Origin: Streptomyces sp. YIM 130001
GTDB lineage: Bacteria > Actinomycetota > Actinomycetes > Streptomycetales > Streptomycetaceae
Assembly: GCF_003574445.1 (NCBI RefSeq)
Contig: NZ_KZ984550.1
Coordinates: 1-64,000 of the forward strand
Length of the DNA stretch: 64,000 nucleotides
Direction: 5' to 3'
The notes under the pieces are model-generated. The model was not told the origin of the DNA and did no database searches. It worked only from the letters and a program-made list of their open reading frames with translations. The position numbers and the translations under genes are program-made. Below, piece after piece: positions 6,207 through 11,535 of the stretch (position 1 is its first letter; each line of letters opens with the position of its first letter).

Positions 6207-7457
6207 GTGAGCCACTCACTGAGCCCGCACGGGCACCACCGTGTACCGCTGCCAGAGGCGCAGACGTCCGGCCCGATGCAGGGTCTGCCGGGTTCCCGGC
6301 TGCCGCATACGGGGCCGAATTCCGCCTCCTCCGCCGGTACTTCGGGGCCTGGCGCCGGCGCGTCCGGCTCCGCGAGCCGCGAGCAGGCCGGTGCGGCGAA
6401 GGCGGCCGCGCAGCGTGATCCGTTCTTCGACAACGCCAAGTACCTGGCGATCGTGCTGGTCGCGATGGGGCACGCATGGCAGCCGCTGACGGGCGACAGC
6501 CGGGCGGCCGAGGCGCTGTACATGACCGTGTACACGTTCCACATGCCGGCGTTCATCATGATCTCCGGCTATTTCTCGCGCAGCTTCGACATGCGTGCCG
6601 ACCGGCTCAAGCGGCTGGTCACCGGAGTGCTCGTTCCGTATGTGCTCTTCGAGGTGGCCTACACGCTGTTCAAGCGGTGGGCGGACGACGATCCGACGTA
6701 TCCGATCAGTCTGCTCGACCCCTGGTACCTGACCTGGTTCCTGGCCGCGCTCTTCGTCTGGCGGCTGACAACTCCACTGTGGAAGCTGGTGCGTTGGCCG
6801 GTCGCACTGTCGCTCGCCATCGCCGTGCTGGCATCGGTCTCGCCCGACATCGGCGACGATCTCGACCTGCAGCGGGTGCTGCAGTTCCTGCCGTTCTTCG
6901 TGCTCGGCCTGGTGCTCAAGCCGGAGCACTTCCAGATGGTGCGGCGGCGTGAGGTGCGGCTGCTCGCCGTGCCGGTGTTCGGGGTGGCGCTGCTGCTCGC
7001 GTACTGGGCGGCGCCGCGGATGACGTCGGCGTGGTTCTACCACCGGGACAGCGCGCAGGAGCTCGGGGCGCCGGCCTGGACGGGCGGTGTGATGACGCTC
7101 GCCCTCTTCGGTTGCTCGATCGTCCTGGTGGCATGCTTCTTCGCCTGGGTCCCGCGGCGCCACATGTGGTTCACGGCGCTCGGTGCCGGGACGCTGTACG
7201 GCTACCTGCTGCACGGATTCCTGGTCAAGGGCTCGCGCTTCTGGGGCTGGTACGAGGAGTACGAGTGGCTGCACAGGCCGCTCGGCGAGATCTTCGTGAC
7301 CGTGCTGGCCGCGACGGTCATCACCCTGCTGTGCACCAAGCCGGTGCAGCGGGCCTTCCGGTTCGCGATGGAGCCGAAGATGGAATGGGCCTTCAAGCGC
7401 GACGCGGCGCAGCTCGCCCGGGAACGCTCCAAGGCGGGATCGAAGACGGGGCGCTGA
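6207..7457 (+). CDS. Acyltransferase family 3 integral membrane protein
   Basis: This belongs to the acyltransferase-3 family, multi-pass enzymes that move acyl groups onto surface sugars, lipids or antibiotics. After a low-complexity Pro/Ser/Gly-rich N-terminus of about 65 residues comes the family opening FFDNAKYLAIVLVAMGH, where the membrane-embedded catalytic His lies. About ten hydrophobic segments follow, including FHMPAFIMISGY, another family hallmark. The length is 416 residues. The start is the GTG at 6207 behind GGGAGGGG. The C-terminus is basic and cytoplasmic. The substrate cannot be deduced, and no glycan or lipid genes are adjacent. The gene stands alone, convergent with the SDR/HD fusion gene. 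Confidence 0.85.
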   Translation: MSHSLSPHGHHRVPLPEAQTSGPMQGLPGSRLPHTGPNSASSAGTSGPGAGASGSASREQAGAAKAAAQRDPFFDNAKYLAIVLVAMGHAWQPLTGDSRAAEALYMTVYTFHMPAFIMISGYFSRSFDMRADRLKRLVTGVLVPYVLFEVAYTLFKRWADDDPTYPISLLDPWYLTWFLAALFVWRLTTPLWKLVRWPVALSLAIAVLASVSPDIGDDLDLQRVLQFLPFFVLGLVLKPEHFQMVRRREVRLLAVPVFGVALLLAYWAAPRMTSAWFYHRDSAQELGAPAWTGGVMTLALFGCSIVLVACFFAWVPRRHMWFTALGAGTLYGYLLHGFLVKGSRFWGWYEEYEWLHRPLGEIFVTVLAATVITLLCTKPVQRAFRFAMEPKMEWAFKRDAAQLARERSKAGSKTGR

Positions 7458-7472
7458 CCGGCGACGCGACGG

Positions 7473-8804
7473 TCAGTCGTCCGCGCCGAGGCCCAACCGG
7501 GCGCGCATGTCGGCGTACTTGCGGGTCAGACGCTCGCGGGTCGGGCCGTCCAGGACTGCGAGTCGCTTCCGTCCGGCGTTGTGCGCGAGGTCAGCGGCCT
7601 TCACCAGACGGGCGCCGTCGGTGGCGAGGATGCGGTCGGCGTACGCCTGCGGGTCTTCGCCCGGCTGTTTGGTGAGGGCCCGCACGATGTCCTTGGTCCG
7701 CTCCGAGAGTGCCGCTTCGGCGAGCCACTCGGGGCTGAGCGCGTCGTCCTCGACCGAGTCGTGCAGCCAGGCCGCCGCGATCTGTTCGTCCGAGCCGCCC
7801 CGTGCGCGGGTGCCCTCGGCCACGGCCTGCAGGTGTTCGGCGTACGGGCGGCCCGCCTTGTCGGTCTGTCCGGCGTGTGCGGCGCGCGCGGTCGCCTCCA
7901 CCTCGGCCAGGGTGAGCCGGCGTACGGAGAAGTCGTAGGTGACGCCGGTGGCGACCTCGCTGCGGGTCCACAGGCGGGCGGCGAGGGCCCGGTCGCGGGA
8001 TCTGCGGCTGGTGTCGACCACCGTCGGGTAGCCGGTTCGCTGCGCGAATCCATCGGGCCCGATGCAGGTACCGCCGCGTACGGCCGGTGCGGTGGCCGCG
8101 TGGAGGAGCGGCAGAGCACCCATCTCGGGCGACTGCGCCGTACCGCCGGCCAGGAGTCTGCCCTTCAGTGAGGTGTCGCGGCGCTGCCCTTCGGTGGCGG
8201 CCACGCCCGGGTGGGCGGCCACCGACAGGAGCGGGCGGCCTGCGGTGGTGAGGCGGCGCTGGAGTTCGTACGCGAAGAGCAGGTTGGCGAGCTTGGACTG
8301 TCCGTAGGCGAGCCAACGTCCGTAGCGGCGGCGGTCGGTGTCGAAGGCGGCCGACGGATGGCCGTCGAGGCCCGCGAGCACGTGGAGACCGCTGGAGACG
8401 GTGACGACGCGGTCCCGGATGCGGTCGAGCAGCAGGCCGGTGAGGGCGAACGGGCCCAGGTGGTTGGTACCCAGGTGTCGTTCGAAACCGTCGGCCGTGG
8501 TGCCCTTCGGGACTGCCATGACGCCCGCGTTGTTGATCAACACGTCGGCGTCGGCGTCCAGTTCGTCCGCGAAGGTGCGTACGGAGGTGAGGTCGGCCAG
8601 GTCGAGGCGGCGCACCTCGACGTCACCGTCGATCGTGTCGGCCAGGGCCCGGGCCTTGTCCCGGTCGCGGCAGGCCATCACGACCTTGGCGCCCGCTCCG
8701 GCCAGTGTGTGCGTCAGCCGGGCACCGAGGCCGCTGGTCGCGCCGGTGACGATCACCGTGCGTCCGGTCTGGTCGGGTACGTCCGCCGCCGTCCATCGAG
8801 TCAT
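7473..8804 (-). CDS. Fusion protein: short-chain dehydrogenase + SpoT/MESH1-like HD hydrolase
   Basis: This is one uninterrupted frame of 443 residues with two enzyme domains. Residues 1 to about 290 form a retinol-dehydrogenase-like SDR: nucleotide motif TGATSGLG (20-27), NNAG (91-94), Ser138, and Tyr167-xxx-Lys171. Residues about 297-443 form an HD-superfamily hydrolase of the SpoT/MESH1 type, with His324, the pair His348-Asp349, the downstream Glu352-Asp353, and Asp405 in VKAADLAHN. All metal and catalytic positions of both domains appear intact. The junction (TYDFSVRRLTLAEVE) looks like the normal end of an SDR running straight into the normal start of an HD protein, as if a stop codon had been lost between two adjacent genes. 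ATG at 8804 has a G-rich ribosome site. The joint function is unknown. Confidence 0.88.
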   Translation of the reverse strand: MTRWTAADVPDQTGRTVIVTGATSGLGARLTHTLAGAGAKVVMACRDRDKARALADTIDGDVEVRRLDLADLTSVRTFADELDADADVLINNAGVMAVPKGTTADGFERHLGTNHLGPFALTGLLLDRIRDRVVTVSSGLHVLAGLDGHPSAAFDTDRRRYGRWLAYGQSKLANLLFAYELQRRLTTAGRPLLSVAAHPGVAATEGQRRDTSLKGRLLAGGTAQSPEMGALPLLHAATAPAVRGGTCIGPDGFAQRTGYPTVVDTSRRSRDRALAARLWTRSEVATGVTYDFSVRRLTLAEVEATARAAHAGQTDKAGRPYAEHLQAVAEGTRARGGSDEQIAAAWLHDSVEDDALSPEWLAEAALSERTKDIVRALTKQPGEDPQAYADRILATDGARLVKAADLAHNAGRKRLAVLDGPTRERLTRKYADMRARLGLGADD

Positions 8805-9001
8805 CGGGCCACCCCCCTGAGGTCCTGATTTCAGAGTAGGCCAGCGGCGCGAGGCCCGGGGCGGAAGTCCGGTCACATCCCCTCCGCTGCCGCGCGCTCG
8901 GCCATACGGACCGTGGTCCGGGTAGCCCGCTCACCCGTCGCCGCGGCAGTACCCCGCTGAGCTGCGACGACGGCCGAAGCAGTCGTTTGGTAACCTAAGT
9001 A

Positions 9002-9023
9002 TTGACGCGTCCTTGACGCGTCC
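9002..9023 (+). repeat. Two tandem copies of an 11-bp unit containing TTGACG
   Basis: TTGACGCGTCC occurs twice in direct succession. Each copy offers a TTGAC -35-like hexamer and an ACGCGT palindrome. An AT-rich stretch around 9034-9041 could serve as the -10 for the second copy. The tandem lies between the divergent SDR/HD gene and the antiporter gene, so it could be a promoter or operator duplication. Confidence 0.6.
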
Positions 9024-9074
9024 TTTGCTTTCGAATTATTTCGTTGTCCCCGCCCTTGCCCGTCCCCGCACGAC

Positions 9075-9113: not shown

Positions 9114-10421
9114 ATGGGTGGAGCCTTTCTCGCCGCAGCGGTCCTCGCCCGCGTCGGCGGCCGCATCGGTCTCCCCACCATTCCCCTCTTCATCCTGGCC
9201 GGCATCCTGCTCGGCCCTCACACACCCGGCGTGGTCCTCGTCGAGGACCCGCACGAGCTGGAGATGCTCTCCGCGCTCGGTCTGGTGCTGCTGCTCTTCT
9301 ATCTCGGCCTCGAGTTCCACATGGACGACCTCAAAGCCGGTGGCAAGAAGATGGCCGTCGCCGGGAGCAGTTACCTCGTCCTGAACGTCGGCGCCGGCCT
9401 CGGCTTCGGCTTCGCTCTCGGCTGGGGCACCTCCGAGGCGCTGGTGCTCGCCGGTGTGCTCGGCATCTCGTCCTCGGCGATCGTGACGAAAGTCCTGGTC
9501 GACACCGGGCGCCTGGGCAATCCCGAGACCAAACCGATCCTCGGCATCATCGTGGTCGAGGACGTGTTCCTCGCGCTCTACCTGGCGGCACTCCAGCCGA
9601 TCCTCTCCGGTGCCGACAGCCTCTCGGCAGCGCTGATCGACGGCGGAAAGGCCTTCGGTTTCCTGCTGTTGCTCGCCCTTGCCGCACGCTTCGGTACGCG
9701 CCTGGTCAGCAAGCTGATCAACACCCGGGACGACGAACTCCTCGTCATCTCGTTCCTCGGTGCCGCGGTCTTCGTGGCCGGTGTCTCCGAGTGGTTCGGT
9801 GTCGCGGACGCCATCGGGGCGTTCATGGTCGGCCTGATGCTCGGCAGTACGAGCTCCGGCGAGCGGATCATGAAGCTGGTGCACCCTCTGCGGGACGCCT
9901 TCGGCGCGATCTTCTTCTTCGCCTTCGGCCTCTCCATCGACCCCGGCCTCCTGACGGTCGTGCTCTGGCCGGTACTCGCGGCGGTCGCCCTGACCCTCGT
10001 GATGAACGTCCTGTCCGGGCTCGCCGGAGCGCGGATCTACGGCTTCGACGCAGGCCCCGCGGCGAACATCGCCACCACCCTGCTCGCCCGCGGCGAGTTC
10101 GCGCTGATCCTGGCCACCATGGCGGCGACCGCGGGACTCGACAGCCGGCTCTCCCCGTTCATCGCGGGTTACGTCCTGCTGCTCGCCGTACTCGGTCCGC
10201 TGGCCGCCGGCCGGTCGCACTGGCTGGCAAGGATCCTGCCCGGCGGGCGCCCGACCGGGTCGAAGCCGAAACCGGGGCCCGAGCGGGACTCGGCCCCGGG
10301 AGCGGACTGGGGACCGGAGACGGACTCGGATCCGGTGACGGACGCGGATCCGGTGACGGACTCGGATCCGGAGGCGGTCAGCCTTCCCGGCACAGCAGAA
10401 GCAGTGCCCGGTCGTCGTTGA
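9114..10421 (+). CDS. CPA2-family cation:proton antiporter (KefB-like membrane domain)
   Basis: This is a monovalent cation/H+ exchanger of the CPA2 family. The 435-residue frame is almost wholly hydrophobic, with about 12 membrane segments. It has family features such as LPTIPLFILAGILLGP, LLFYLGLEF, ISSSAIVTKVL and FFFAFGL. No cytoplasmic TrkA/RCK domain is attached. The ATG at 9114 truncates the first helix and has no ribosome site. An in-frame ATC at 9087 sits 6 bases after a perfect AGGAGG, so the true protein may start there with nine more residues. The C-terminal tail is acidic and built from an 18-bp DNA unit repeated three times. The last 44 bp overlap the convergent phosphatase gene. 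Confidence 0.9.
   Translation: MGGAFLAAAVLARVGGRIGLPTIPLFILAGILLGPHTPGVVLVEDPHELEMLSALGLVLLLFYLGLEFHMDDLKAGGKKMAVAGSSYLVLNVGAGLGFGFALGWGTSEALVLAGVLGISSSAIVTKVLVDTGRLGNPETKPILGIIVVEDVFLALYLAALQPILSGADSLSAALIDGGKAFGFLLLLALAARFGTRLVSKLINTRDDELLVISFLGAAVFVAGVSEWFGVADAIGAFMVGLMLGSTSSGERIMKLVHPLRDAFGAIFFFAFGLSIDPGLLTVVLWPVLAAVALTLVMNVLSGLAGARIYGFDAGPAANIATTLLARGEFALILATMAATAGLDSRLSPFIAGYVLLLAVLGPLAAGRSHWLARILPGGRPTGSKPKPGPERDSAPGADWGPETDSDPVTDADPVTDSDPEAVSLPGTAEAVPGRR
10323..10376 (+). repeat. 18-bp tandem repeat, three copies, in the antiporter tail
   Basis: Three successive 18-bp units (10323-10340, 10341-10358, 10359 to about 10376) encode DSDPVT, DADPVT and DSDPEA. The array lies next to the 3'-end overlap with the convergent phosphatase and probably arose by slippage. 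Confidence 0.7.
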
Positions 10422-11535
10422 CGTCCTTCGCGACCGCCTCGATGAGGTGCCAGGCAGCTCCGTGAAAGCCGCCCGCGACATAGCGGTCGGCCTCTCCGGT
10501 GAGGCGGTCGATACCTTCCGCTATATCCCGCTCGGCGGTCTCCACCAGGCCGTCGGTGAAGAGCATCAGTACATCGCCGGGGCGCAGGGAACCCTTCACC
10601 GGGTCGAACTGCGCCCCGTCGTACACCCCGAGCAACGGACCCTCGGCCGTCTTCTCCTCCCAGCGGCCGGTGCCGGCGTGCAGTTGCAGCGCCGGGGGAT
10701 GGCCCGCGGACTGCAGTTCGTAGTCCCCGGAATCGAGGTCGAGGGCCAGGTGGATCGAGGTCGCGAAGCCCTCGTCCCAGTCCTGGCGCAGCAGATAGCC
10801 GTTCGCCGCCGGCAGGAAGGCGTGCGGCGGGAGCGATCCGAGCAGGCCGCCGAAGGCGCCGGAGAGCAGCAGGGCACGCGAGGCTGCGTCCATGCCCTTG
10901 CCGGACACGTCGGTGAGGACGACCTCCAGCGTGCGTCCGCCGCCGGTACGGGCGGCCACCACGAAGTCTCCCGAGAACGACTGGCCGCCCGCCGGGCGCA
11001 GCGCCATCTCGCGGTGCCAGCCGACCGGAAGCTTGGGCAACTTGCTCTGTACCCGGATCCGTTCACGCAGGTCGAAGAGCATCGTCCCGCCGCGCCGCCA
11101 CGGCACCCCGACCCGGCTGCGGAACTGGGCGATGAGCAGCCCGAAGAGTCCGCAGGCGCCGACCACGAGCACCACTCCCGGCGTGACGCCCACCGGGACG
11201 CGGTCGTAACTGCCGAGCTGTATCGACTCCACGACCAGGGCGGCCGCGGCTGCGGCGTACAGGCCGAGCAGGCTGGCGGGGCGCAGCAGCAGGCCGCCCG
11301 CGACGATCGGCAGGACCAGGGTGGACGGCGCGCACCACTCGGGGCGGGCGAGGGTGGCGGCGGCGATGGCCGGGATCGTGAGGAGCAGCGCGACGAGCGC
11401 GATCCAGTCGGAGCCGTCACCGCGGAAGTAGTCGACTCCGGATCTGCGCAGCGCGATACGGGCCCGGTGCGCGCGCTTGCGCATCCGGGCCGGAAACGTC
11501 TCGGCCTCGGCTCGGCCCGACTGTCGTGCTGCCAT
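10378..11535 (-). CDS. Membrane-anchored SpoIIE-family PP2C serine phosphatase
   Basis: PP2C-type phosphatases of the SpoIIE/RsbU group remove phosphate from anti-sigma-factor antagonists and are numerous in Streptomyces. The 385-residue protein has a basic N-terminus and then about four hydrophobic segments (about residues 45-135). The catalytic domain follows, with metal-binding motifs SGDFV, VLTDVSGKGMDA, and LFTDGLVE near the C-terminus. There is no GAF, PAS or HATPase domain, so regulation must come from the membrane part. The gene starts at ATG 11535. It converges with, and overlaps by 44 bp, the antiporter gene. No partner anti-sigma gene is adjacent. Confidence 0.9.
   Translation of the reverse strand: MAARQSGRAEAETFPARMRKRAHRARIALRRSGVDYFRGDGSDWIALVALLLTIPAIAAATLARPEWCAPSTLVLPIVAGGLLLRPASLLGLYAAAAAALVVESIQLGSYDRVPVGVTPGVVLVVGACGLFGLLIAQFRSRVGVPWRRGGTMLFDLRERIRVQSKLPKLPVGWHREMALRPAGGQSFSGDFVVAARTGGGRTLEVVLTDVSGKGMDAASRALLLSGAFGGLLGSLPPHAFLPAANGYLLRQDWDEGFATSIHLALDLDSGDYELQSAGHPPALQLHAGTGRWEEKTAEGPLLGVYDGAQFDPVKGSLRPGDVLMLFTDGLVETAERDIAEGIDRLTGEADRYVAGGFHGAAWHLIEAVAKDVNDDRALLLLCREG

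Follow-up and report, generated by a model that had tools for sequence, protein, structure and literature searches.

Does a single gene of Streptomyces sp. YIM 130001 encode both a short-chain dehydrogenase (SDR) and an HD hydrolase, and, if it does, how did the two come together and what would the joined protein do? The gene lies within the window, the 64,000-nucleotide stretch of DNA analyzed here, and the first-pass annotation had described it as one unbroken frame linking a complete SDR to a complete HD hydrolase. Translation of positions 7473-8804 on the minus strand bore this out, with 0 internal stops over 443 residues, and the catalytic residues that had been named in both halves were all found at their positions. 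The Pfam matches in the protein were adh_short (E 2e-17) and HD_4 (28.5 bits, with a cut-off of 27.2). Our best reading, drawn from sequence comparisons, is that a tether of about five residues links an SDR, likely of the NADP(H) type, to an HD domain that we predict to hydrolyse adenine alarmones in a metal-dependent manner. The features of the locus are collected in Table 1.

Table 1. Features of the SDR-HD locus (window coordinates).
Feature	Position	Strand	Basis or remark
Acyltransferase gene (PF01757)	6207..7457	+	Convergent neighbour of the HD gene; present in 77/87 HD loci
Fused SDR-HD gene	7473..8804	-	443 codons plus stop; translation and same architecture in S. triticagri P0002
HD half, residues 293-443	7473..7928	-	H324, H348-D349, E352-D353, D405, N409
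Asp315, at the RelSeq Arg44 position	7860..7862	-	Asp in 119/119 best-scoring homologues and in 7smg
Junction, residues F292-R296 (TGVTYD-FSVRR-LTLAEVE)	7917..7931	-	Alignment to unfused SDR and HD proteins
SDR half, residues 1-292	7929..8804	-	NF004846/PRK06197-type oxidoreductase
Conserved intergenic element between antiporter and fused gene	8985..9030		Alignment with loci L044, L057, L072 and L118; also in S. triticagri
Na+/H+ exchanger (antiporter) gene (PF00999)	9114..10421	+	Divergent neighbour; present in 8/87 HD loci

A fusion carried by two species

The full 443-residue architecture was sought in the databases, and a fused homologue was found in S. triticagri. This protein, P0002, has the same length, aligns without gaps at 86% identity and comes from a separate assembly. 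The whole-protein search scored the 7999 candidates that shared most words with the query, and among the best 120 of 7998 matches only the YIM 130001 protein and P0002 spanned the query from end to end. Genome searches that used all 443 residues as query, at E 1e-140, recovered the fusion in 1 of 394 genomes of the family, which was YIM 130001 itself, and in 2 of 100 genomes of relatives. The family, relatives and genus searches are all samples of larger groups, and S. triticagri was not drawn in the 394-genome sample, since it would have matched. An alarmone hydrolase and a short-chain dehydrogenase were not found together in any paper among the open-licence PMC articles searched.

The presence of the same fusion in another assembly means that it is not an assembly error. 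An artefact of assembly or annotation has practically no chance: some gene call must have differed, as a 142-residue database protein, P0121, starts inside the HD half, but the two gap-free fusions come from assemblies of two species and their dN/dS is below 1 in both halves. The SDR-HD protein is thus a real and rare fusion, a new domain architecture made of two known kinds of enzyme. Among 79 HD domains placed in a tree, those of YIM 130001 and S. triticagri formed one clade (100/97), with a poorly resolved backbone. A single origin of the fusion would place it before the two species diverged.

A structure model of all 443 residues had a mean pLDDT of 84.4, with values below 50 at residues 95-109, 144-158 and 203-205. 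Parts of the SDR were poor because the half-length rows of the alignment were probably aligned badly, and for this reason no domain packing or interface was drawn from the full-length model.

The two halves and their predicted activities

The SDR half scored 326.7 bits against NCBIfam NF004846, above the curated cut-off of 268, and carries the elements of a classical SDR: TGATSGLG at residues 20-27 (the TGxxxGxG motif), NNAG at 91-94, VSS from 136 with Ser138, and YGQSK from 167 with the Tyr167/Lys171 pair of YxxxK. Its best solved relative was 3rd5 (4.7e-71), a structural-genomics entry that, judging from its code, is presumably mycobacterial. Next came protochlorophyllide reductases, which matched over the cofactor half and several of which are named NADPH-dependent. 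A basic residue after beta 2 is the rule for NADP(H) preference, and the stretch VMACRD, located after beta 2 in this half, fits NADP(H). The solved relatives and this stretch make it likely that the SDR half uses NADP(H). Unfused NF004846/PRK06197 short-chain oxidoreductases were at most 76% identical to it among the matches listed; they differ from the fusion in that all 118 other homologues listed align to the SDR part only, that is, over 59-69% of the query. The best SDR paralogue within the YIM 130001 genome was 52% identical, and no unfused copy or donor of the same SDR was found in 392 sampled genomes of the genus, where only the two fused genomes passed E 1e-122.

The HD half has the RSH-type HD fold with its metal and catalytic set of His, His-Asp, Glu-Asp and Asp, and His324, His348-Asp349, Glu352-Asp353, Asp405 and Asn409 were unchanged in all 119 homologues, the best-scoring ones listed. 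The label SpoT/MESH1-like, originally given to this half, holds at the level of the superfamily but not as a statement of closer kinship, because a (p)ppApp hydrolase from Bacteroides caccae (7smg) is nearer by profile and by fold and because Asp315 replaces the arginine found at position 44 of RelSeq. Entry 7smg, which we take to be the enzyme called Aph1, ranked first among PDB entries in four rankings of the HD half: phmmer (5.9e-8), profile search (1.1e-13, with the next entry at 2.1e-7), Foldseek (2e-6) and Z score (19.8, with the next entry at 18.1). The Asp-Lys of its QIDKAG stretch matches Asp315-Lys316 of the fused protein, although it is a single-domain protein with 27-29% identity to the HD half. 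The MESH1 entries (3nr1, 5vxa and 9chy) had lower profile scores than 7smg (26.5 and 24.7 bits), and by profile, Foldseek and Z score the HD half was no closer to MESH1 than to the other solved HD hydrolases. Hydrolysis of (p)ppApp by Aph1 proteins has been described (PMC12226406).

In RelSeq, Arg44 contacts guanine and the substitution R44Q abolishes hydrolysis (PMC13299517). The aligned Rel proteins have Arg at this position, in contrast to the Asp of the fused HD half, and both long RSHs of the YIM 130001 genome have Arg-Lys where the fusion has Asp315-Lys316. Long proteins of the same HD family that lack the SDR also have Asp there (24 of 24). These comparisons lead us to predict that the fused HD half is a metal-dependent (p)ppApp hydrolase. 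The hydrolase SAHMex is described as highly active toward (p)ppApp, with negligible activity toward (p)ppGpp, but the Arg44 position is absent from the example candidate determinants given for it (PMC7644958), and Asp315 therefore need not be the determinant. The low identity to 7smg speaks against the (p)ppApp reading, and so does a genome with no small synthetase, as a source of (p)ppApp, by PF04607: this family matched the two long RSHs only, while PF13328 matched these two, the SDR-HD fusion and nothing more.

The HD half could instead act more broadly, stripping 3'-pyrophosphate or 3'-phosphate groups from adenosine ends such as those of pyrophosphorylated tRNA-CCA, CoA and PAPS, with (p)ppApp as one substrate among others. 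Promiscuous neutralisation of toxSAS products has been ascribed to the antitoxin ATfaRel, itself a small alarmone hydrolase (PMC11782079), MESH1 has been reported as a CoA phosphatase (PMC13221220) and the MESH1 structure 9chy was solved with PAPS. The result of the PF04607 search counts against this broader activity as well, and we consider it improbable. A redox or alarmone switch as suggested in the first-pass annotation, in which the HD half would dephosphorylate NADP(H) or hydrolyse ppGpp and control the SDR or be controlled by it, appears more doubtful still. It would agree with the NADP(H)-type appearance of the SDR half and with the hydrolysis of NADPH by the bacterial small alarmone hydrolase XccSAH, for which kcat/Km is 3.63e2 versus 10.67e5 for pppApp (PMC9765508), but the HD half is nearer to the (p)ppApp hydrolase than to MESH1 and 28 of 30 HD loci have no such SDR beside the HD gene. 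Equally a long shot is a redox-gated adenine-alarmone hydrolase, in which NADP(H) occupancy or an SDR oligomer would set how active the attached HD domain is; were it true, the clade would couple its only small alarmone hydrolase to the redox state of the cell.

Locus, junction and origin of the fusion

The HD gene is an old and common gene found at a conserved locus near tig. A match was present in 332 of 392 sampled genomes of the genus (E 1e-10), about 30 of which had a weaker match only (E > 1e-30), perhaps to a more distant relative. Among 87 HD loci, the neighbours included, besides the acyltransferase and the antiporter (Table 1), a SpoIIE-type phosphatase in 75, the trigger factor gene tig in 68, an fpg-type gene in 59 and an SDR in 2 (L035 and L042, which represent one S. 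triticagri contig). These counts are lower bounds because contig ends truncate many of the loci, and the set includes the duplicate contigs L035/L042, L040/L056 and L041/L059. In the window, the SpoIIE-type phosphatase frame (10378-11535, minus strand) shares 44 bases with the antiporter frame, at the 3' end of the latter. The unfused Streptomyces HD proteins compared (n=20) are 72-81% identical to the fused HD half and differ from it in having their own start codon and no SDR. The gene for such a protein at the same conserved locus is the probable orthologue of the fused HD half. A small alarmone hydrolase of S. diastatochromogenes has been named PbcSpo[H] (PMC9927088; the subgroup name is also used in PMC3153485).

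The first-pass annotation had proposed that two neighbouring genes were merged by the loss of a stop codon. This does not hold as a description of the ancestral state, in which the SDR is better seen as a newcomer at an old HD locus. Across 30 loci, of which one (L023) is incomplete, an SDR lay beside the HD gene only in YIM 130001 and S. triticagri, and genomes with the two genes adjacent but separate, which had been suggested as a check, were not found among the sampled HD loci. A merger of ancestral neighbours was rejected, as this SDR did not turn up beside the HD gene in other sampled species; its absence is weak evidence at loci cut by contig ends. In four relatives (L044, L057, L072 and L118) the intergenic element at 8985-9030 separates the antiporter from the unfused HD gene, which places the SDR between this element and the HD coding sequence. 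In S. triticagri the gap that separates the fused gene from the antiporter also holds a 163-codon open frame (L042, 4579-5070, plus strand), perhaps for a small membrane protein. In YIM 130001, a ten-codon open stub (8873-8905, minus strand) has a similar start, and because only this stub is left there the gene of the S. triticagri type looks lost.

The junction lies near the ends of both unfused proteins. The commonest end of the unfused SDR homologues was 7 residues past TGV, in 32 of the 100 that were measurable (of 118), and the unfused HD gene starts with MERQQRRLSLAEVE at loci L057 and L072 and with MERTHRLSLAEVE at locus L044. In neither fusion was there an in-frame ATG, GTG or TTG at residues 287-301, the first in-frame start codon past the junction being the GTG of Val302. 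This codon occupies 7899-7901 (minus strand) and is the point at which P0121 begins; the site has GTG in both fused species and GTC or GTA in ten unfused relatives. Inspection by eye showed no evident Shine-Dalgarno-like stretch at Val302, and an internal start there looks unlikely for this reason.

One insertion and one fusion event probably account for the data on the locus, the junction and the tree. The reading that we prefer, with a probability of about 0.5, is that an SDR that likely uses NADP(H), and that probably arrived once, was joined through about five residues to a predicted (p)ppApp hydrolase to give a two-domain protein. In this pathway the SDR gene would have inserted, in an ancestor of both species, at the boundary between the HD coding sequence and the intergenic region that separates it from the antiporter. 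After losing its last few codons and its stop, it would have replaced the HD gene's own start, leaving the HD enzyme to be produced solely as a C-terminal extension of the SDR. The HD half would keep its old job as the sole small alarmone hydrolase found in the YIM 130001 genome, using Mn2+ to take the 3'-pyrophosphate off adenine nucleotides; the SDR half would likewise retain its own oxidoreductase reaction. The link would ensure that the two are expressed together and might let them share an oligomer.

Selection on the fused halves and other partners of the HD family

The fusions of YIM 130001 and S. triticagri were separated by a dS of 0.307 with a dN/dS of 0.273 over the whole frame, about 0.296 in the SDR half and 0.220 in the HD half. 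These values indicate that both halves are under purifying selection. Unfused HD genes (800 non-independent pairs from 77 genes, dS 0.2-0.45) had a median dN/dS of 0.221, with 51.5% of the pairs at or above the fused HD half. Since its dN/dS equals the unfused median, the fused HD half is under ordinary constraint, and no relaxed selection on it after fusion was found. Three neighbouring genes compared between the same two species gave dN/dS values of 0.079-0.112, below both fused halves. At 83 columns conserved in at least 95% of 119 homologues, YIM 130001 deviated at 3 (V332T, D411G and P412R), S. triticagri at 4 and the others at 0-3, a comparison that is biased because the 119 others were chosen for their similarity. 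The counts of the two fused species, being on the high side, speak against ordinary constraint on the HD half.

The HD family has also been joined to quite different domains. Of 26 proteins returned by a search with the HD half among those of about 244-775 residues, 2 had an SDR (YIM 130001 and S. triticagri), 18 had DUF6508, 2 had an R2K ATP-grasp domain and 4 had the HD alone by Pfam. The DUF6508 and R2K ATP-grasp proteins differ from the fusion studied here in their partners and, in some, in the N-terminal location of the HD domain; these partners might hint at the role of the family. Such variety would suit a passive fusion, in which the domains are independent, no new function is gained and the join was tolerated because of its position at the natural termini of the two proteins and because expression stayed adequate. 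The ordinary constraint on the HD half, the position of the junction and the occurrence in two species only, among the sampled genomes and the matches listed, point the same way. However, both species have kept the fusion intact despite the divergence given above, and we regard a join of this kind as rather unlikely.

The preferred two-domain reading has consequences beyond the fusion itself. The widespread Streptomyces HD gene looks, from its sequence, as if it encoded a hydrolase of adenine alarmones and not of ppGpp, and it bears on the role of (p)ppApp in bacteria without a toxic synthetase. As the unfused state is preserved in much of the genus, the effect of the tether can be tested cleanly. 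An HD protein 75% identical was also found in Saccharopolyspora dendranthemae (L092), which belongs to a different family of Actinomycetota, and the HD gene may have been transferred beyond the Streptomycetaceae.
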